Positions 22,480 to 32,454 of a stretch of 64,000 bases of DNA are shown in pieces. Source of the DNA: Mumia sp. ZJ1417 (lineage in GTDB: Bacteria > Actinomycetota > Actinomycetes > Propionibacteriales > Nocardioidaceae). The notes beneath the pieces are model-generated. The model ran no database searches and was not told the origin of the DNA. It saw only the letters and a list, made by a program, of their open reading frames with translations. Position 1 is the first letter of the stretch, and the number at the start of each line of letters is the position of its first letter. The stretch is from NCBI RefSeq assembly GCF_014127285.1, contig NZ_CP059901.1, positions 3,906,001-3,970,000 of the forward strand. Direction: 5' to 3'. A program made the translations under genes and the position numbers.

Positions 22480-23391
22480 ATGCACCTGCGCGACCGGCTC
22501 GCTCGGTTCGACATCAACGGCGCGCCCTACGTATTCATCGCCCCGTTCTTCGTGCTCTTCGGCATCTTCGGGCTCTTCCCGCTCGGATACACGCTCTGGG
22601 TGTCGCTGCACGACTGGAGCCTGCTGGGCGGCAACGAGGGGTGGGTCGGGTTCGCCAACTACACCGAGCTGGTCGGTGACGAGTACTTCTGGAACAGCCT
22701 GCTCAACACCTTCGCGATCTTCGTGATCGCGACCGTCCCGCAGATCCTCGCGGCGCTCGCGCTCGCGCAGGTGCTCAACACCAGCCTGCGCGCGCTCACC
22801 TTCTGGCGGATCGGCGTGATCATCCCGACGGCAACCTCGATCGCCGCGGTCGGGATCATCTTCACGATGATGTTCTCCCGCGACTTCGGGATCATCAACT
22901 GGCTCATCGGGCTCGTCGGCGTCGAGCCGATCGCCTGGAACCAGGAGCGTCTGCCCTCGTGGCTGGCGATCGCCACGATGGTCGACTGGCGGTGGACAGG
23001 CTACAACGCCCTCATCCTGCTGGCCGCCCTCCAGGCCGTCCCCAAGGAGCTGTACGAGTCCGCACGGCTCGACGGCGCGTCGGCCCTGCGGCAGTTCCGC
23101 TCGATCACCATCCCGATGCTGCGCCCGACACTGATGTTCGTCGTGACGGTCGCGACCATCGGTGGCATCCAGCTCTTCACCGAGCCGCTGCTGTTCAACC
23201 CCGGCGCCAACGCGATCACCGGGGGCGACACCCGCCAGTTCCAGACGAGCGCGATGTACGTCGTGGAGCAGGCGTTCACGGGTCAACGGTTCGGGTACGC
23301 CGCCACGGTCGCCTGGATCCTGTTCGCGATCATCGTCGTCGTCTCGCTCGTGAACTCCCTGCTCGTACGCCGCATCCGCTCGGTCGACTGA
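22480..23391 (+). CDS. cebF: Sugar ABC transporter permease (MalF/CebF type)
   Basis: A 303-residue inner-membrane protein with about six membrane segments; the first is YVFIAPFFVLFGIFGLFPLG. The ATPase-contact EAA loop is ELYESARLDGASALRQFRSITIP. It forms the pore with CebG. The 116-base gap after cebE holds short palindromes (GTCGTACGAC, GGTCTCGAGACC) that could attenuate downstream transcription or be repeat debris. No ATPase gene is in the operon, so a shared MsiK-type ATPase is expected elsewhere. Confidence 0.93.
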   Translation: MHLRDRLARFDINGAPYVFIAPFFVLFGIFGLFPLGYTLWVSLHDWSLLGGNEGWVGFANYTELVGDEYFWNSLLNTFAIFVIATVPQILAALALAQVLNTSLRALTFWRIGVIIPTATSIAAVGIIFTMMFSRDFGIINWLIGLVGVEPIAWNQERLPSWLAIATMVDWRWTGYNALILLAALQAVPKELYESARLDGASALRQFRSITIPMLRPTLMFVVTVATIGGIQLFTEPLLFNPGANAITGGDTRQFQTSAMYVVEQAFTGQRFGYAATVAWILFAIIVVVSLVNSLLVRRIRSVD

Positions 23392-23401
23392 GGAGCCTCG
23401 T

Positions 23402-24307
23402 ATGACCACACCCCTCATCCCGGTGGACAGGATCCTCCCGGTCCTGGACGAACCGGAGCCCGTCCGACGACGCCGTCGCCGCGCCCTCGGCAAGGCGTCG
23501 CCGCTGACCTACCTGGTCCTGACGTTCGTCATCCTCGCCTCCGTGGCACCGCTCTACTACATGGTCGTGATGGCGTCGCGGCCCAACAGCGACATCACCT
23601 CCACCCCGCCACCGCTCACGCCCGGCGACCAGCTCGGCGAGAACGCCACCCGCGTCTTCGCGAACCCCGACGTGATGTTCGCGCAGTCGCTGCTCAACTC
23701 GCTGATGGTCTCGCTCGTCGCGACGATCACCGTGGTGACGCTCTCCTCGCTCGCGGGGTTCGCGTTCGCCAAGCTCCGCTTCCGCGGCAAGAACGTCTTC
23801 CTGCTCGCGGTGATCGGCACGATGATGGTCCCGGTCCAGCTCGGCCTGGTCCCCCTCTACATGCTGATGGGCTGGCTCGGCCTCGCCGGCAGCCTGTGGT
23901 CGGCGGTCCTGCCCTTCCTCGTCACCGGCTTCGGCGTGTTCTTCATGCGCCAGTACGTCAGCCAGGCGATCCCAGACGAGCTGATCGAGGCCGCGCGCGT
24001 CGACGGCGCCTCGACCCTGCGGATCTTCGCGCAGGTCGTCTTCCCTGCGATGCGCCCTGCCGTCGCGGTCCTGGGGCTGCTCACGTTCATGGAGCGCTGG
24101 AACGACTTCATGTGGCCCTACCTCACGCTCTCCCCCGAGAACCCGACCGTCCAGGTGGCGCTGTCGCGGCTGTCGGGCGGCTACTACACCGATCAGGCGC
24201 TGGTGATGGCGGGCACGCTGCTCGCGACCGTCCCGCTGGTCCTGGTCTTCATCCTCTTCGGTCGCCGCATCGTCGGCGGAATCATGGAAGGTGGGCTCAA
24301 GGGATGA
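23402..24307 (+). CDS. cebG: Sugar ABC transporter permease (MalG/CebG type)
   Basis: A 301-residue permease with an Arg-rich N-terminus (EPVRRRRRRALGK) and about six membrane segments. The EAA loop is DELIEAARVDGASTLRIFAQVVFP. It follows cebF after ten bases and overlaps the GH1 gene by four bases, so the three are translated together. Its partner is CebF. Confidence 0.93.
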   Translation: MTTPLIPVDRILPVLDEPEPVRRRRRRALGKASPLTYLVLTFVILASVAPLYYMVVMASRPNSDITSTPPPLTPGDQLGENATRVFANPDVMFAQSLLNSLMVSLVATITVVTLSSLAGFAFAKLRFRGKNVFLLAVIGTMMVPVQLGLVPLYMLMGWLGLAGSLWSAVLPFLVTGFGVFFMRQYVSQAIPDELIEAARVDGASTLRIFAQVVFPAMRPAVAVLGLLTFMERWNDFMWPYLTLSPENPTVQVALSRLSGGYYTDQALVMAGTLLATVPLVLVFILFGRRIVGGIMEGGLKG

Positions 24308-25710
24308 CCGACGTCGTCACCGATCCCCTCACCACGCTCGCAGCGTCGTTCCCGTCCGGCTTCACCTTCGGCGCCGCCACCGCGGCCTACCAGATCGAAG
24401 GTGCCGTCGCGGAGGACGGCCGTACCCCGTCGATCTGGGACGCGTTCTCCGCGCAGCCCGGCCGCGTCGCGAACGGCGACACGGGCGAGGTCGCCGTCGA
24501 CCACTACCACCGGATGCCCACCGACGTGGACCTGATGAGCGACCTCGGCCTCGGGGCGTACCGGTTCTCCGTCTCGTGGCCGCGCGTTCAGCCCGGCGGC
24601 GCCGGACCGGTCAACCCGAAGGGGATCGACTTCTACGACCGGCTGGTCGACACCCTGCTGGACCGGGGCGTCGCACCGTGGGCGACCCTCTACCACTGGG
24701 ACCTGCCGCTCGCGCTCGAGCAGGCGGGCGGTTGGCCGGCACGCGACACGGCGGCGCGGTTCGCCGAGTACGCCGGAGTCGTCGCCGACGCCCTCGGCGA
24801 CCGCCTCCACGGCCTGATCACGCTGAACGAACCATGGTGCTCAGCGTTCCTCGGCTACGGCAACGGCGTGCACGCGCCGGGTCGTGCCGACGGGGCGACC
24901 GCGCTCGCCGCGTCGCACCACCTGCTGCTCGGGCACGGCCTGGCCGCACAGGCGATCCGCGCGATCGCGCCCGAGACGCCGCTCGGCCTCACGGTCAACC
25001 TCTATCCGACCTCGCCTGCGCTCCCCGAGGGCTATGACGGCCCTGACCGCGCGGCGTACGACGATGCCGTGCGACGCGTCGACGGACTGTGCAACCGGTG
25101 GTTCCTCGACCCGGTGTTCGGCCGCGGATACCCGGCCGACGTCGTCGAGGACGTCCGGCCGATGTCGGCGCTGGAGTTCGTCCGGGGCGGAGACACCGAC
25201 GTGATCGCGGCGCCGCTGGACTTCCTCGGCGTCAACTACTACACGCGTCACGTGGTCGCTCCGGGCGCGCACCCGGGCGCGGCGACGGTGGAGTTCCGCA
25301 AGCGCGGACTGCCGACGACAGCCATGGGCTGGGAGGTCGACCCGGACGGCCTGTACGACGTGGTCCGCCGCGTGCACGACGACTACCCGGCGATCCCGAT
25401 CTATCTGACCGAGAACGGCTCCGCGTACGAGGACGTCGTCTCCGCCGACGGCCAGGTCCACGACCCGGAGCGGCTCGCGTACCTCCGGGAGCATCTCGAG
25501 GCGATGGCACGCCTGTCCGCCGACGGTGTCGCGGTCGCGGGCTACTTCGCGTGGTCGCTGGTGGACAACTTCGAGTGGGCCGAGGGCTACGCGAAGCGGT
25601 TCGGGTTGGTGCACGTCGACTACGACACGCAGGTGCGGACCCCCAAGGACAGCGCGCGCTGGTATGCCGCACTCCTTGCGGCCCACCGGGACGGGATACT
25701 GGGCGCATGA
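24304..25710 (+). CDS. bglC: Glycoside hydrolase family 1 beta-glucosidase
   Basis: A 468-residue (beta/alpha)8 enzyme starting at ATG 24304, four bases inside cebG. FTFGAATAAYQIEGA is the family N-terminal signature, the acid/base Glu176 is in TLNEPW, and the nucleophile Glu370 is in YLTENGSAY. YFAWSLVDNFEWAEGYAKRFGLVHVD closes the barrel. It lacks a signal peptide and would hydrolyse imported cellobiose to glucose in the cytoplasm. In streptomycetes the same enzyme sits behind CebEFG. Confidence 0.95.
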   Translation: MTDVVTDPLTTLAASFPSGFTFGAATAAYQIEGAVAEDGRTPSIWDAFSAQPGRVANGDTGEVAVDHYHRMPTDVDLMSDLGLGAYRFSVSWPRVQPGGAGPVNPKGIDFYDRLVDTLLDRGVAPWATLYHWDLPLALEQAGGWPARDTAARFAEYAGVVADALGDRLHGLITLNEPWCSAFLGYGNGVHAPGRADGATALAASHHLLLGHGLAAQAIRAIAPETPLGLTVNLYPTSPALPEGYDGPDRAAYDDAVRRVDGLCNRWFLDPVFGRGYPADVVEDVRPMSALEFVRGGDTDVIAAPLDFLGVNYYTRHVVAPGAHPGAATVEFRKRGLPTTAMGWEVDPDGLYDVVRRVHDDYPAIPIYLTENGSAYEDVVSADGQVHDPERLAYLREHLEAMARLSADGVAVAGYFAWSLVDNFEWAEGYAKRFGLVHVDYDTQVRTPKDSARWYAALLAAHRDGILGA

Positions 25711-26741
25711 CGGGTGGGCCGGAGGCTGGCAAGCGCCCGACGCTCGAGCAGGTCGCCGCGCTCGCCGGCGTCGGGCGTGGCACCGCGTCCCGCGTCATCA
25801 ACGGCTCCCCCTCGGTCGCGCCACAGACCCGCGACGCGGTGATGAAGGCGGTCGCCGAGCTCGGCTACGTCCCCAACCAGGCCGCGCGCTCGCTGGTCAC
25901 CCGCCGTACGGGCGCGATCGCCCTGGTGATCTCCGAGCCCGAGGAGCGCCTGTTCAGCGAGCCGTTCTTCGCCGGTGTCGTCCGCGGGATCTCACAAGTG
26001 ATGGACGAGCGCGACCGCCAGCTCGTGCTCGTGCTCGTGCACGGACCGGCCGAGCGACGCGACGAACCCGCCGCCTACCTGAGCCCGCAGCACGTCGACG
26101 GTGCGCTGCTGCTCTCGCAGCACGAGGGCGACGACCTTCCGCAGCAGCTGCGCGACCGCGGGCTGATGCTCGTGCACGGCGGCCGGCCGCCGGGCGTCGA
26201 GGGCGCCAGCTATGTGGACGTCGACAACGTCGGCGGCGCACGCGCGGCCCTGCGTCATCTGCTCGAGCGCGGGCGGCACCGGGTGGCGACGATCGCAGGA
26301 CCGCCCGACATGCAGGCCGGACGCGACCGCTTGCGCGGCTACCGCGAGGCGCTCGAGGCCGGCGGGATCGCATACGACCCGAGCCTGATCGAACAGGGTG
26401 ACTTCACCGAGCCCGGCGGGTGGCAGGCGATGCGTCGCCTGCTCGCGCGCCACCCGGACGTCGACGCGGTGTTCGCCGCATCCGACCCGATGGCGCTCGG
26501 CGCCCTGCGCGCACTGCGCGAGGCGGGGAGCGCGGTGCCTGCCGACGTCGCCGTGGTCGGCTTCGACGACTCGCCGATGGCGGCGATGAGCGACCCGCCG
26601 CTGACGACCATCAACCAGCCGGCCGACGTCCTCGGCCGCGAGATGGCCGAGATGCTCCTGGCGGCTCTGGCCGACCCGGAGAACGACGAGGCGCGCAGCC
26701 TCGTCCTGCCGACGAGCCTCGTCGTCCGCGGGACGACCTGA
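25707..26741 (+). CDS. cebR: LacI-family regulator, CebR-like repressor
   Basis: A 344-residue regulator starting at ATG 25707 with ATGA overlap of the GH1 stop. The HTH is PTLEQVAALAGVGRGTASRVINGSP, with the hinge VPNQAARSLVTRRTGAIALV. The effector domain has DGALLLS, GHRVATIAGP-like RHRVATIAGPPDMQAGRDRLRGY and FDDSPMA. The presence of two CebR-type operators before cebE, and its place as last gene of that operon, support a cellobiose-released autorepressor role. Confidence 0.92.
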   Translation: MTGGPEAGKRPTLEQVAALAGVGRGTASRVINGSPSVAPQTRDAVMKAVAELGYVPNQAARSLVTRRTGAIALVISEPEERLFSEPFFAGVVRGISQVMDERDRQLVLVLVHGPAERRDEPAAYLSPQHVDGALLLSQHEGDDLPQQLRDRGLMLVHGGRPPGVEGASYVDVDNVGGARAALRHLLERGRHRVATIAGPPDMQAGRDRLRGYREALEAGGIAYDPSLIEQGDFTEPGGWQAMRRLLARHPDVDAVFAASDPMALGALRALREAGSAVPADVAVVGFDDSPMAAMSDPPLTTINQPADVLGREMAEMLLAALADPENDEARSLVLPTSLVVRGTT

Positions 26742-26771: not shown

Positions 26772-27425
26772 TCAGGTCGTGAACGCCTCGCCGGTCTCCC
26801 CCGGCTCGGCCGGCGTCGAAAGGATGCCCGTGCACGCCGCGGCCGCGGCTTCAGGATCACCTCGGACGACGGCGACCGCGAGATCGTCGAGCAGCGATCG
26901 GAGCATCGGCGTCTCCTCGGGGTCAGGACACTGGACGGCGAGCATGTCCTCCAGCTCGCCGAGGAGGCTGTTGCCCGCCAGACGGCGTACGCACCGCCAG
27001 ACCTCGTCGAACGTCGGGACGGTGCCGTCGTCGCCGAGCATCGCGATCCGCATCGCCTTCTGCGGGTGGCTCGCCGCCGCACGAGCGACCCCGCCCATGA
27101 CCGCCTCGCGGGCGGCCGCCACCTCCGAGCGAGGGTGGGCAGCAATCCGGCCGGGGAGATCCTCGGCGACCGGTGCCTTCCGGACGAGGGCGCCCACGCC
27201 GTGCCGGACCTCGACCCGTCCCTGGGTCTCGAGGGCGGCGAGCGCCTGCGCGAGCGTGGCGCGGCTGACCCCGAGGTCGCGCGCCAGCTGACGCTCCGAG
27301 GGGAGCCGGTCACCTGGCACCAGGCCCTGCGCGTCGATGAAGTCCGCGATGTGCTGCGCGAGGTGCTCGTACAGCCTCGGACGCTGCACGGGACGGGGCC
27401 CGCGCTGATCGTCGCCCTGGCTCAT
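26772..27425 (-). CDS. GntR-family regulator (MatR-like by position)
   Basis: A 217-residue regulator starting at MSQGDDQRGP. The winged HTH is YEHLAQHIADFI...GDRLPSERQLARDLGVSRATLAQALAALETQGRV, followed by a helical C-terminal domain like FCD but with poorly conserved metal ligands. It is divergent from the MatC-like carrier gene. In Rhizobium a GntR protein, MatR, controls matABC, so the same role for this operon is plausible but inferred. Confidence 0.85.
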   Translation of the reverse strand: MSQGDDQRGPRPVQRPRLYEHLAQHIADFIDAQGLVPGDRLPSERQLARDLGVSRATLAQALAALETQGRVEVRHGVGALVRKAPVAEDLPGRIAAHPRSEVAAAREAVMGGVARAAASHPQKAMRIAMLGDDGTVPTFDEVWRCVRRLAGNSLLGELEDMLAVQCPDPEETPMLRSLLDDLAVAVVRGDPEAAAAACTGILSTPAEPGETGEAFTT

Positions 27426-27438
27426 GAGGGGAGCGTAC

Positions 27439-27496
27439 TTGACATTTGCGCCAGTGGACCAGAGGCTAGGCCACTGAACCTGTGGTCTGCACCACA
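27439..27496. promoter_or_regulatory. Divergent promoter region with two palindromes
   Basis: TTGACA (27439-27444) with GAGGCT 17 bases later forms a plausible plus-strand promoter. CAGTGG (27452-27457) pairs with CCACTG (27471-27476) around it. TGTGGTCTGCACCACA (27481-27496) is a palindrome with 6-bp perfect arms resembling the TGGT-N-ACCA sites of GntR/FadR proteins. Both are candidate operators for the divergent regulator. Confidence 0.6.
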
Positions 27497-27526
27497 TGAC
27501 GTAGCACACACCTGGAAGGGGACCCC

Positions 27527-28885
27527 GTGTCCACCGAAATCGTCGCGCTGGCCGCGCTCGCGCTGGTCTTCCTGATCGCGACCGTCCGCAGCATCAACAT
27601 GGGTGCGCTCGCGCTCGTGGCCGCCTTCATCGTGGGCCTCAGCGTCTTCGGCGACGACACGGACGCGATCATCGCCGGATTCCCGGGCGAGTTGTTCGTC
27701 ATCCTGGTCGGCGTCACCTACCTGTTTGCGCTCGCCAAGAACAACGGCACCGTCGACTGGATCGTCCACGGCGCCGTCCGCGCCGTCCGCGGACGGGTCG
27801 CGCTCGTTCCGTGGGCGATGTTCTTCGTCTGCGCGGTCGTCACCGGCATCGGCGCCGTCAGCCCCGCCGCGGTCGCGATCGTCGCACCGGTGGCGATGGG
27901 CTTCGCGCACCGCTACCGCATCCACCCGGTGATGATGGGCATGATGGTGGTCCAGGGCGCGACCGGCGGCAGCTTCTCGCCGATCGGCATCTTCGGCAGC
28001 ATCACCAACGGCGTCGTCGACTCCAACGACCTCGAGGGCAGCCCGACCTTCCTCTTCCTGGCCGCGATGACTGCCGCCACGCTCGTCGCCGCGATCACCT
28101 ACGTGGTCTTCGGCGGTCGTGAGCTGATCCGCCGTGGCAAGGACGAGCGCGCGCTCGTCGACGTCGGCGCGACCGCCGAGGCCGCGAGCAGCGCGGCGAC
28201 CCGTGGCGCGGTTACGGGGACGCCCGGCTCCGCCATCGAGCAGGGCCTCGGTCGCACCGACGACCTCGACGACCTCGACGACGACACCCGCCTCAACCTC
28301 GAGCGTTCGAGCACCCTCCTCGGTCTGGTCGCACTCATCGTGGGCGCGCTCGCGTTCGACCTCGATGTCGGCTTCACGGCGCTCACCGTCGCGGTGGTCC
28401 TCACCCTGCTCTTCCCGCCGTCGGCACGTGGCGCGGTCGAGAAGATCAGCTGGGGCACGATCCTCCTGGTCGGCGGCATCGTCACCTATGTCAACCTCCT
28501 GCAGAACCACGGCGTCGTGACCTGGCTGGGCGACCGCGTCGCCGAGGTCGGCGCACCCCTCATCGCAGCACTGCTGATCTGCTTCATCGGTGCAGTCGTC
28601 TCGGCGTTCGCCTCGACCACGGGCATCATCGGCGCCCTGATCCCGCTGGCGGTCCCCTTCCTGCTCACCGACCAGGTCAGCGCGATCGGACTCATCGCCG
28701 CGCTCGCGATCTCGAGCTCGGTCGTCGACTGCAGCCCCTTCTCGACCAACGGCGCCCTGATCGTCGCGAACTCCGACGAGAGCCAGCGCGAGATGGTGTT
28801 CAAGCGCCTCATGCAGTGGGGCATGTCCATCGTCGTGATCGCTCCCCTGCTGACCTGGGCAATCCTCGTGCTCCCGACGACGTGA
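27527..28885 (+). CDS. matC: MatC-like dicarboxylate (malonate) carrier, SLC13/ArsB-type permease
   Basis: A 452-residue membrane protein with 10-12 hydrophobic segments. It starts at GTG behind GGAAGGGG. The N-terminal half matches the MatC N-terminal domain: FGDDTDAIIAGFPGELFVILVGVTYLFALAKNNGT and TGGSFSPIGIFGSITNGVV. A hydrophilic loop (about residues 200-255) separates the halves, and SSSVVDCSPFSTNGALIVAN marks the second. MatC family proteins import malonate or related dicarboxylates. The stop overlaps the methyltransferase start (GTGA). Malonate as substrate is an inference. Confidence 0.82.
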   Translation: MSTEIVALAALALVFLIATVRSINMGALALVAAFIVGLSVFGDDTDAIIAGFPGELFVILVGVTYLFALAKNNGTVDWIVHGAVRAVRGRVALVPWAMFFVCAVVTGIGAVSPAAVAIVAPVAMGFAHRYRIHPVMMGMMVVQGATGGSFSPIGIFGSITNGVVDSNDLEGSPTFLFLAAMTAATLVAAITYVVFGGRELIRRGKDERALVDVGATAEAASSAATRGAVTGTPGSAIEQGLGRTDDLDDLDDDTRLNLERSSTLLGLVALIVGALAFDLDVGFTALTVAVVLTLLFPPSARGAVEKISWGTILLVGGIVTYVNLLQNHGVVTWLGDRVAEVGAPLIAALLICFIGAVVSAFASTTGIIGALIPLAVPFLLTDQVSAIGLIAALAISSSVVDCSPFSTNGALIVANSDESQREMVFKRLMQWGMSIVVIAPLLTWAILVLPTT

Positions 28886-29694
28886 GCAAAACGGTGTCCG
28901 GAGACGAGCCCGAGGCGGGCGGCGACCACGCCGCCCGCCTCCGGGCGTCCTTCACCGCCCAGGCCGACACGTTCGAGGAGCCCACGCTCAACGCGGCGTT
29001 CACCTCTGCGCTCGACTGGGTCGTCGAGGCGGCTCAGCCCCATGCGGGCGACCAGTGCCTCGACCTCGCGTCGGGCACCGGGCTCGTCGGGCGGGCACTC
29101 GCGCCGCAGATCGCCCACGTCACCTGCGTGGACAGCACCCCGGCCATGCTCGCGCGCGGACGCGCGGCGGCCGCCGCCGAAGGCCTCACGAACATCACCT
29201 TCGTCCTCGGCGACGCGACCATCCCGGTCGTCCCCGCAGGGAGCGTCGATCTCGGCGTGACCCGGTTCTCCCTCCACCACGTCCCCGATCCGCTGGCCGT
29301 CCTGCGCACGATGGTCGAGGCCTGCCGGCCGGGCGGTCGTGTCGTCGTGCACGACCTCGCGTCGTCGACCGACCCGACGCTCGCCGCCCGTCAGGACGCG
29401 ATCGAGACCTGGCGCGACGACTCCCATCTGCGCACCCCCGTGCTCGGTGAGGTCGCGGCCTGGCTGCGCGACCTCGGCGCCGTGGTCGACCGCACCGACC
29501 AGCGGACGTACGAGCGACCGCTCGAGCCGTGGCTGGCGCAGTCCCTTACACCGCCCGACCGTGCCGTCCACGTGCGGCAGGCGTTCGCCGACGAGCTCGC
29601 CGGCGGCGAGCCCACCGGATTCGCGCCGACGCAGCGCGACGACGACGTCTGGTTCACCCAGACCTGGGAGCTCACCGTCGCCCACCGCCCCTGA
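28882..29694 (+). CDS. Class I SAM-dependent methyltransferase
   Basis: A 270-residue protein from GTG 28882 (VSKTVSGDEPEAGG), overlapping the carrier stop. Motif I is CLDLASGTGLVGRALA, motif II TCVDSTPAMLARGRA, and LGVTRFSLHHVPDPLAVLRTM gives the post-I region of the UbiE/COQ5-type group. It is cytoplasmic. Its job beside a carrier and CoA-transferase is unclear: it could methylate a dicarboxylate or act on an unrelated small molecule. Confidence 0.87.
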   Translation: MSKTVSGDEPEAGGDHAARLRASFTAQADTFEEPTLNAAFTSALDWVVEAAQPHAGDQCLDLASGTGLVGRALAPQIAHVTCVDSTPAMLARGRAAAAAEGLTNITFVLGDATIPVVPAGSVDLGVTRFSLHHVPDPLAVLRTMVEACRPGGRVVVHDLASSTDPTLAARQDAIETWRDDSHLRTPVLGEVAAWLRDLGAVVDRTDQRTYERPLEPWLAQSLTPPDRAVHVRQAFADELAGGEPTGFAPTQRDDDVWFTQTWELTVAHRP

Positions 29695-29749
29695 CCGACG
29701 ACCTGCACCACCGCCGTACCCGCCACGCCCGCACGACCAGGAGCACCGC

Positions 29750-30943
29750 ATGCTGACCGACATCGTCGTCCTCGACCTCACCCGCGCCCTCGCCGGCCCG
29801 CACGCCGCGATGATGCTCGGCGACCTCGGCGCCCGGGTCGTCAAGGTCGAGTCGCCGACCGGAGACGACACCCGTGGCTGGGGACCGCCGTTCGTGGGTG
29901 AGCCCGGCGACGAGGAGTCGACGTACTTCCTGTCGTGCAACCGCAACAAGGAGTCGGTGACCGCCGACCTCAAGAGCGACGCCGGCAAGGAGCTGCTGAC
30001 GCGGCTCGTACGACAGGCCGACGTGCTGCTGGAGAACTTCCGACCCGGTGTCCTCGCACGCCTCGGCTTCTCCGAGGAGCGTCTCCACGAGCTCAACCCC
30101 CGACTGGTGATCTGCTCGATCACCGGGTTCGGGCACGACGGGCCGGAGGGTGGGCGTGCCGGGTACGACCAGATCGCGCAGGGCGAGGCCGGGCTGATGA
30201 GCATCACCGGCCCGTCGCCCGAGGAGCCGACCAAGGTCGGGGTCCCGATCGGCGACCTGCTCGCCGGGATGAACGCCGCGTACGGGGTGGTCGCCGCGCT
30301 GCACGAGCGCCACGCCACCGGCCGGGGGCGGGTCGTGCGGACGAGCCTGCTCGCGAGCATCGTCGGCGTTCACGCCTTCCAGGGCACCCGGTGGACGGTC
30401 GCCGGCGAGGTGCCGCGCGGGATGGGCAACCACCACCCGTCGATCGCTCCGTACGGGCTGTTCCGTACGGCCGACTCGCCCGTGCAGATCGCAGTCGGCA
30501 GCGAAGGGCTGTGGACGCGGTTCGCACCGTTGATCGGGCTCGACCCCGCCGCCGCGCCGTACGCGACCAACCCCGACCGGGTCGGCGGGCGTGAGGGACT
30601 GACCGCGCTGATCGAGGAGCGTTTCGCCGACGAGGGTGCCGAGGTGTGGCTGGCTCGGCTGGCCAACGCGGGCGTCCCCGCCGGCAAGGTGCGCACGCTC
30701 GACGACGTCTATGCGTGGGACCAGACCCGCTCGCAGGGGCTGCTCATCGACGTCGAGCACGAGAGCCTCGGCTCCGTCTCGCTGCCGGGCCCTGCACTGC
30801 GGCTCGACGACAACCCGTATGCCGGCGCGCGTGAGACGCACCTGGCTCCCCCGCGACTTGGACAGCACAACGCATCGATCGCCGCGTGGCTCGACGCCTG
30901 CGAGACGGACGACGCGCGCGGTGGGTCGGAGGCGACGGCGTGA
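29750..30943 (+). CDS. Class III (CaiB/BaiF) CoA-transferase
   Basis: A 397-residue CoA-transferase starting at MLTDIVVLDLTRALAGPHAAMMLGDLGARVVKVE. The catalytic Asp lies in VGVPIGDLLAGMNAAYG, and the C-terminal part has NAGVPAGKVRTLDDV. Class III enzymes move CoA between carboxylic acids. Between a dicarboxylate carrier and a carboxyltransferase-fold protein, it is well placed to make malonyl-CoA (or a related thioester) from the imported acid. GAGCACC is a weak ribosome site; the 55-base gap before it holds nothing else visible. Confidence 0.92.
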   Translation: MLTDIVVLDLTRALAGPHAAMMLGDLGARVVKVESPTGDDTRGWGPPFVGEPGDEESTYFLSCNRNKESVTADLKSDAGKELLTRLVRQADVLLENFRPGVLARLGFSEERLHELNPRLVICSITGFGHDGPEGGRAGYDQIAQGEAGLMSITGPSPEEPTKVGVPIGDLLAGMNAAYGVVAALHERHATGRGRVVRTSLLASIVGVHAFQGTRWTVAGEVPRGMGNHHPSIAPYGLFRTADSPVQIAVGSEGLWTRFAPLIGLDPAAAPYATNPDRVGGREGLTALIEERFADEGAEVWLARLANAGVPAGKVRTLDDVYAWDQTRSQGLLIDVEHESLGSVSLPGPALRLDDNPYAGARETHLAPPRLGQHNASIAAWLDACETDDARGGSEATA

Positions 30944-32454
30944 GCACCCGGTTGAGCGCGCAGGCGCTGATCGACCTCGTGCTCGACGACGGGTCCTTCG
31001 GGTCCTGGGACACGCCGGTCGTCCGAGGCGAGGTGGCGCCCGACTACGCCGCGGACCTCGCCCGTGCACAGGAGCGCTCCGGCACCGACGAGTCCGTCGT
31101 GACCGGCGAGGGCACGATCCACGGGCGCCGGGTGGCGGTGCTCGTCGGCGAGTTCGGGTTCCTCGCCGGGTCGATCGGCGTCGATGCGGCCGAACGGCTC
31201 ACGGTCGCCGTGGAGCGGGCGACCACCGAGGGACTCCCCCTGCTCGCCGCGCCGGTCTCGGGCGGGACGCGGATGCAGGAGGGCACCCCGGCGTTCGTCC
31301 GGATGGTCCAGATCACCGCGGCGATCTGCGCGCACAAGGACGCTGGCCTCCCGTACCTGGTGTATCTGCGCAACCCCACCACCGGCGGCGTCATGGCGTC
31401 GTGGGGATCGCTGGGCCACATCACGGTCGCGGAGCCGGGTGCGCTGCTGGGGTTCCTCGGGCCGCGCGTATACGAGGCGCTGTACGGGGAGCCGTTCCCC
31501 GAGGGCGTGCAGACGTCGGAGAACCTGTACGCGCACGGCATCGTCGACGCGGTGCTCCCGCCGGAGGAGCTGGCCGGGATCGTGGACCGGACGCTGCGCA
31601 TCCTGCAGTCGCCACGGCCGACTGCTCCGGGTCTCGATACGTCCTCGCCTAGCGGCTCGGACTACTCGACCAGTGGGGTCGGCTCGGATCCGTGGGAGTC
31701 CGTCCTCGCTTCGCGCAGCGACGATCGCCCGGGGGTCCGCGCCCTCCTGCGCCACGGCGCGAGCGACGTCGTCCCGCTCAACGGCACCGGCCAGGGCGAG
31801 GCGGGCCACGGGCTGGTGCTCGCGCTCGCCCGCTTCGGGGCGTCGCCCGCCGTGCTCCTCGGTCAGGACCGGCGCGCGCAGACCGCCGACCGGCCGCTCG
31901 GCCCGGACGCCCTGCGTGAGGCGCGCCGCGGCATGCGGCTGGCCGCCGAGCTCGGGCTCCCGCTCGTCAGCGTGATCGACACCCCCGGCGCTGCGCTGTC
32001 CGTCGACGCCGAGCAGGGTGGGCTCGCCGGCGAGATCGCGCGCAGCCTCGCGGACATGGTGACACTCCCCGTCCCGACTCTGACCGTTCTGCTCGGCCAG
32101 GGCACCGGCGGCGGCGCGCTCGCGCTGCTGCCCGCCGACCGCGTCGTGGCCGCGCAGCACGCGTGGCTGTCACCGCTGCCGCCGGAGGGTGCGAGCGCGA
32201 TCGTGCACCGCGTCCCCGACCGGGCAGCGGAGATGGCACGCGCCCAGCGCGTCGGCGCCGCCGCACTCGTCGAGGACGGGACCGTCGACCGCGTCATCGC
32301 CGAGTCGCCCGATGCCGCGCAGGAGCCGGAGGCGTTCTGCCGCCGGGTCAGCGAGGTCGTCGAGGACGAGCTCACGCAGCTGTGGGCGGCCGACGACGTG
32401 GCACGCCGCGCCGCGCGACGAGCGCGCTTCCGCCGCGGACTCGCCGGCGCCTGA
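30940..32454 (+). CDS. AccD-AccA-type carboxyltransferase fusion (candidate malonyl-CoA decarboxylase)
   Basis: A 504-residue fusion starting at GTG 30940 on the CoA-transferase stop. The N-terminal half (about 1-225) is AccD-like: ESVVTGEGTIHGRRVAVLV, VSGGTRMQEGTPAF, TTGGVMASWGSLGHITVAEP, GFLGPRVYEALYG. It lacks the N-terminal zinc ribbon of AccD. The C-terminal half (about 265-500) is AccA-like: LPLVSVIDTPGAALSVDAEQGG, LGQGTGGGALALLPADRVV, SPLPPEGASAIVHR. A 43-bp dispersed repeat encodes the linker. No biotin carboxylase or carrier gene is nearby, so it may work as a biotin-independent decarboxylase, as MdcD-MdcE do; this is inference. Confidence 0.85.
   Translation: MSTRLSAQALIDLVLDDGSFGSWDTPVVRGEVAPDYAADLARAQERSGTDESVVTGEGTIHGRRVAVLVGEFGFLAGSIGVDAAERLTVAVERATTEGLPLLAAPVSGGTRMQEGTPAFVRMVQITAAICAHKDAGLPYLVYLRNPTTGGVMASWGSLGHITVAEPGALLGFLGPRVYEALYGEPFPEGVQTSENLYAHGIVDAVLPPEELAGIVDRTLRILQSPRPTAPGLDTSSPSGSDYSTSGVGSDPWESVLASRSDDRPGVRALLRHGASDVVPLNGTGQGEAGHGLVLALARFGASPAVLLGQDRRAQTADRPLGPDALREARRGMRLAAELGLPLVSVIDTPGAALSVDAEQGGLAGEIARSLADMVTLPVPTLTVLLGQGTGGGALALLPADRVVAAQHAWLSPLPPEGASAIVHRVPDRAAEMARAQRVGAAALVEDGTVDRVIAESPDAAQEPEAFCRRVSEVVEDELTQLWAADDVARRAARRARFRRGLAGA
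31630..31672 (+). repeat. 43-bp dispersed repeat, copy B, in frame in AccD-AccA fusion
   Basis: 41/43 identical to 10120-10162 and in the same coding sense and frame. It encodes LDTSSPSGSDYST in the linker between the AccD-like and AccA-like halves. Confidence 0.85.

Follow-up and report, generated by a model that had tools for sequence, protein, structure and literature searches.

A predicted biotin-independent malonate pathway in Mumia that combines a MatC-type carrier, a class III CoA-transferase and an AccD-AccA fusion

Two described bacterial systems catabolize malonate, the rhizobial MatR-MatA-MatB-MatC pathway and the MdcA-E system, and a 64,000-nucleotide stretch of Mumia sp. ZJ1417 DNA (contig NZ_CP059901.1, positions 3,906,001 to 3,970,000; here termed the window) contains a five-gene locus with likenesses to both. 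In common with the Mat genes, it has a GntR-type regulator and a MatC carrier and is predicted to use a malonyl-CoA intermediate and to form acetyl-CoA by decarboxylation, but a class III coenzyme A (CoA)-transferase (CoAT) replaces the MatB ligase, and an AccD-AccA fusion (FUS) replaces MatA, which belongs to the malonyl-CoA decarboxylase (MCD) family PF05292. The Mdc system swaps acetate on its thiol carrier for malonate, which in principle parallels CoA transfer, but the Mumia genome has no MdcA and, as a preliminary description of the sequence had noted, none of the five genes codes for an acyl carrier; free CoA would take the place of the special carrier. MdcDE is a biotin-free, crotonase-fold decarboxylase akin to carboxyltransferases and can use malonyl-CoA as a substrate in vitro (PMC5534430). 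For the Mumia locus we infer substrate, CoA donor, reaction and biotin independence, and consider it quite probable that the operon imports malonate, that CoAT makes malonyl-CoA from it, and that FUS decarboxylates this to acetyl-CoA and CO2 without biotin. The features are as follows.

26772..27425, minus strand: GntR-family regulator gene, divergent from the operon (PF00392, 62 bits)
27460..27476, no strand: probable GntR operator CAGAGGCTAGGCCACTG with core GGCTAGGCCA, conserved upstream of MatC, CoAT or FUS
27481..27496, no strand: palindrome TGTGGTCTGCACCACA (TGGT-N4-ACCA), a second site or chance
27527..28885, plus strand: MatC-type dicarboxylate (malonate) carrier (MatC_N PF07158, 190 bits with a cut-off of 23; CitMHS, 132 bits)
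28882..29694, plus strand: class I S-adenosylmethionine (SAM) methyltransferase, MT (Methyltransf_25/11)
29750..30943, plus strand: CoAT, a class III CoA-transferase, predicted malonate CoA-transferase (CoA_transf_3, 392 bits)
30940..32454, plus strand: FUS, an AccD-AccA fusion of the AccD3 family, predicted biotin-independent malonyl-CoA decarboxylase (Carboxyl_trans and ACCA)

Family profiles and coordinates confirm all five genes in the order and on the strands first described. The overlapping of genes reported earlier holds for MatC/MT and CoAT/FUS (4 bases each, GTGA) but not for MT and CoAT, which are separated by 55 bases. The nearest named record to FUS is from Mumia xiangluensis, with 86% identity and an identical gene order, and the Mumia sp. 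ZJ1417 genome codes elsewhere for second copies of CoAT (78%, L129) and FUS (60%, L130).

In the proposed pathway, MatC would import malonate, CoAT would move CoA onto it from acetyl-CoA or succinyl-CoA, and FUS, in which the AccD half is predicted still to bind the CoA thioester and the AccA half to lack a carboxybiotin site, would release CO2 from malonyl-CoA in a direct step that leaves acetyl-CoA. If acetyl-CoA is the donor, this would be an ATP-free cycle from malonate to acetate and CO2, and in other actinobacteria the CoAT-FUS pair would finish the oxidative uracil pathway, of which malonate is the product. This scheme of import, activation by CoA transfer and decarboxylation by the fusion, as originally put forward, is predicted because three gene contexts converge on malonate, and is also supported, at the level of sequence, by gene co-occurrence, the near absence of MCD and MdcA, and the loss of carboxybiotin-side motifs. 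If correct, it would give a malonate route to actinobacteria, nearly all of which are without MCD and Mdc, account for the final reactions of oxidative pyrimidine breakdown, and represent a carboxylase that became a decarboxylase through loss of its biotin side, with implications for how malonyl-CoA is provided to polyketide and mycobacterial lipid synthesis.

Among a survey set of 247 genomes of the class, FUS relatives (E ≤ 1e-20) are present in 135, about 76 of them with close relatives, and CoAT relatives in 62 genomes of 17 families; the two genes lie within 3.5 kb of each other in 35 of the 247, spanning 12 families. The first context, a GntR gene divergent from MatC-CoAT-FUS, recurs in Nocardioidaceae, Geodermatophilaceae and further families, and another family has three genomes in which MatC adjoins FUS, with CoAT either beside them or at a separate locus. 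The second is HyuA-HyuB-CoAT-FUS-carbamate kinase-ring hydrolase, and one locus (L111) combines both as MatC-CoAT-FUS-carbamate kinase-ring hydrolase. A search for co-occurrence of all five families across actinobacteria had been suggested; four of them co-occur, as only Mumia has the methyltransferase within the operon.

The third context is a GntR-MatC-ligase-carboxyltransferase (CT) operon in five Streptomyces-type genomes (family f20). The ligase (L193) is a near match to malonyl-CoA ligase 3nyq (981 bits), identifying it as MatB, so that the Streptomyces CT stands in the place of MatA. As in Mumia, a zinc-ribbon-less carboxyltransferase-fold protein lies beside MatC and a malonate activator, but the activator is a ligase and the CT, which is about 35% identical to FUS, forms a separate long branch in the tree (L175). 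The lone Streptomyces gene at L175 has no informative gene context; other Streptomyces provided one. A phylogeny published in 2019 described some actinobacterial CT proteins as malonyl-CoA decarboxylases, orthologs of S. coelicolor 'MatA', citing work on Rhizobium (PMC6491548). This MatA-type naming of related proteins is a precedent; the CoA-transferase form and the links to barbiturase and AccD3 were not found in the literature searched, and no enzymology of an AccDA-type decarboxylase was found in that search, with subscription journals mostly outside its reach.

The known malonate enzymes are rare in this class. MCD (PF05292) is absent from the Mumia genome and present in 2 of the 247 genomes, and MdcA (TIGR01110) is likewise absent from Mumia and above cut-off in two. 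The reported lack of MatA and MatB also stands, in that the operon contains no ligase and the Mumia genome has no MCD and no match to NF005702 above a cut-off that a true Streptomyces MatB would miss too.

The ring hydrolase of the second context provides the link to pyrimidines, as barbiturase converts barbiturate to ureidomalonate, which leads onward to malonate in the oxidative pyrimidine pathway. It scores 655 bits against PDB 5hwe ('Barbiturase') and 337 bits against cyanuric acid hydrolase, and in the alignment has Asn at the position of Arg188, like the solved barbiturase; Arg188 is kept in every family subgroup except those of Bacillus (Lys) and barbiturase (Gln) (PMC4051656). Assignment as a cyanuric acid hydrolase, for which the NCBIfam equivalog is passed (475, with a cut-off of 360), was rejected, as PDB similarity and the Arg188 position favor barbiturase. 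The cyanuric acid amidohydrolase equivalog NF052395 passes its cut-off on L167:11412-12521, which scores about twice as close to the solved barbiturase, and is a likely source of misannotation.

CoAT (62 genomes) and barbiturase (60 genomes) occur together in 57 (Fisher p 4e-46, uncorrected for kinship), and the five CoAT genomes that lack barbiturase include four with MatC. Barbiturase or MatC accompanies nearly every CoAT, so that CoAT is found almost only where a malonate source is encoded. HyuAB may cleave ureidomalonate, yielding the product on which carbamate kinase would act. In other actinobacteria CoAT-FUS adjoins barbiturase and would use up the malonate formed through barbiturase and ureidomalonase, but the Mumia barbiturase lies outside the window, in a separate HyuA-HyuB-SDR-LysE-carbamate kinase-barbiturase cluster (G000:C1, L198:4139-12452). 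A gene for a uridine kinase-like P-loop protein lies immediately 5' of CoAT, in the opposite orientation, at six loci (L133, L134, L137, L139, L162, L165), an additional hint at pyrimidine metabolism, and in one family a carbonic anhydrase-like gene is divergent from CoAT near barbiturase clusters (L159-L169). The CoA_transf_3 domain spans the full length of CoAT, and its nearest solved relatives are CaiB/BaiF 4ed9 and succinate-HMG CoA-transferase 9br7; the Asp of GDLLAG aligns with an Asp of both, which we take to be the catalytic Asp of class III CoA-transferases.

Judged by its motifs, FUS is a derivative of AccDA with an AccA half that is without the carboxybiotin-side motifs. It has Carboxyl_trans and ACCA domains and, in agreement with the first description, no zinc ribbon (Cys motif), nor does any other member of its clade. 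Distant fusions (35 to 38% identity) have the AccD zinc ribbon in nine of nine cases, with biotin carboxylase (BC) beside all nine and usually biotin carboxyl carrier protein (BCCP, by a simple motif search); they form one clade (support 98), separated from the 123 rows of the window side by a branch with support 100. The preliminary description held that linkage to a biotin carboxylase or carrier would count against its scheme; such linkage is found only in this zinc-ribbon sister clade, and neither a biotin carboxylase nor a carrier is present among the five operon genes or beside CoAT-linked relatives. In the window clade, HQKG...RNFGM and YPG are lost from the AccA side, where GGSGG and YSVISPEG are altered as well; the AccD side keeps SGG-RMQEG and PTTGG. 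The HQKG/QQRG...RNFGM region is kept in the solved E. coli, S. aureus and Chloroflexus AccA, and the HQKG...RNFGM segment and YPG are also lost in the Streptomyces CT branch.

Position 110 of FUS is Thr or Ser in both biotin-free branches and Ala in the BC-linked fusions. The Val121 amide of Pseudomonas MdcD is part of the oxyanion hole (PMC5534430), and an MdcDE-like protein (L206) has GGVRLQE at the matching motif, which suggests a possible location of Thr110 at the reaction center. This protein (L206:8480-10129) is a natural MdcD-MdcE-like fusion of 549 aa, coded beside MdcA in a mycobacterium-like genome that has a MatC-CoAT-FUS operon elsewhere. The AF2 model of FUS (pLDDT 92.6, pTM 0.92) has a carboxyltransferase fold, with Z scores of 36.6 to Chloroflexus AccA (C half) and 34.2 to AccD6 (whole length), although the fold alone does not separate carboxylase from decarboxylase. 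Of the two comparisons first suggested, the AccDA likeness is borne out and membership of the MdcDE family is rejected, as the MdcD and MdcE profile scores (37.9 and 22.9 bits) are far under their cut-offs (278 and 237); MdcDE is not among the structural matches listed for the model, which excludes nothing.

Other roles for the module can be envisaged. It could act on another or a broader dicarboxylate, such as methylmalonate formed from thymine via 5-methylbarbiturate, with FUS converting methylmalonyl-CoA to propionyl-CoA; MatC and class III CoA-transferases can take several dicarboxylates, and thymine uses the same oxidative pathway. We regard this as unlikely, given that the MatC_N model describes a malonate carrier and that the Streptomyces FUS-like protein is paired with a malonyl-CoA ligase. 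FUS could also be a biotin-dependent carboxyltransferase served by a biotin carboxylase and carrier encoded elsewhere, like the shared AccA3 of mycobacteria, and make malonyl-CoA or act as a reverse transcarboxylase. Its fold and family scores are of carboxyltransferase type, and in actinobacteria one carrier, encoded in trans, often serves several AccD proteins. Against this, synthesis of malonyl-CoA from acetyl-CoA would be pointless beside a malonate importer and a CoA-transferase or MatB, the carboxybiotin-side motifs of the nine BC-linked fusions and aligned solved AccA chains are lost throughout the FUS clade, and AccD3 bound no partner (PMC4347857), which together make a biotin-dependent role decidedly improbable. 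Least credible is a role of the operon in providing malonyl-CoA for biosynthetic use, with a different function for FUS, for instance control of how large the malonyl-CoA pool becomes. In the CoAT genomes without a close FUS the pathway may stop at malonyl-CoA, but tight, overlapping CoAT-FUS pairs in 12 families and the Streptomyces FUS-like protein in the place of MatA beside MatB-MatC leave this very little room.

Several observations weigh against the proposed scheme. A close FUS is missing from 18 of the 62 CoAT genomes, so that CoAT does not always require FUS, and neither CoAT nor MatC accompanies mycobacterial accD3 or many of the Nocardioides FUS genes. FUS scores 160 and 163 bits with the AccD and AccA profiles, well above those for MdcD and MdcE, and retention of invariant columns is only mildly different between the AccD (39/65) and AccA (34/70) halves. 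The MatB-linked Streptomyces CT branch keeps GGSGG and YFSVIAPE, the genomes are phylogenetically related, so that the Fisher p value overstates independence, and the decarboxylase activity is itself a prediction. A single operon of Nocardioides FUS and neighboring 2-oxoacid dehydrogenase genes was considered and rejected, as they are on opposite strands.

Decarboxylation by FUS would also give a function to AccD3 of mycobacteria (Rv0904c, MSMEG_5642), left open in published work. A malonyl-CoA decarboxylase activity was reportedly purified from M. tuberculosis decades ago with no gene assigned, and would fit AccD3. In the tree, accD3 at L182 and L183, identified through the divergent adjacent echA6 (360 bits to 5dtp), lies inside the window FUS clade; AccD3 is about 60% identical to Mumia FUS but stands alone without CoAT or MatC. 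One genome (G049), of the same family as the mycobacterial accD3 loci, has both a lone accD3 (L182) and a GntR-MatC-CoAT-FUS operon (L141). Pull-downs with AccD3 gave no carboxylase partner and its role as a carboxylase subunit was doubted (PMC4347857); in M. smegmatis, which has a second homolog (MSMEG_2169), it is not needed for fatty and mycolic acids and its role 'awaits further study' (PMC5311964). On balance, we lean toward the view that the zinc-ribbon-less AccD-AccA family, M. tuberculosis AccD3 included, arose from acetyl-CoA carboxylase by loss of the carboxybiotin site and decarboxylates malonyl-CoA independently of biotin, and that, acting with a malonate CoA-transferase, it completes the oxidative breakdown of uracil in actinobacteria.

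The methyltransferase is a Mumia-specific local addition outside the conserved core module. Distant copies elsewhere sit in other contexts, and one Mumia locus (L219) retains MatC-MT-CoAT with FUS not adjacent; it was said to have no place in the known routes, and it does not recur with the module outside Mumia.

Divergent GntR-MatC pairs are found again in other families, and the GntR protein probably represses the operon and would be released by malonate or malonyl-CoA. The TGGT-N4-ACCA promoter palindrome described earlier is present at 27481-27496 but is not a conserved operator: similar sequence occurs only in Mumia (L031, TGTGGCCTACACCACA), and with up to three mismatches the palindrome has a match in 25 of 100 shuffles. 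What is conserved is a site slightly upstream, GGCTAGGCCACTG at 27464-27476, and CAGAGGCTAGGCCACTG is the probable GntR operator. Its core GGCTAGGCCA matches once in the window (0.09 expected) and occurs 31 times, in several families, across 3.3 Mb of retrieved loci in which some regions are represented twice; nearly all occurrences are directly 5' of MatC, CoAT or FUS. In genome G207 it precedes both a MatC-FUS locus (L144) and a separate CoAT locus (L151), tying the two together as one regulon, and a similar dyad, TTGGCTCAGCCACT, is present in Streptomyces intergenic regions. A TauE/SafE-like membrane protein gene adjoins GntR in Nocardioidaceae operons (L112, L113, L115-L119). Just 5' of the Mumia operon region, at 22480-26741, are genes for a sugar ABC transporter permease, a beta-glucosidase-like protein and a LacI-type protein, resembling an ordinary sugar operon.

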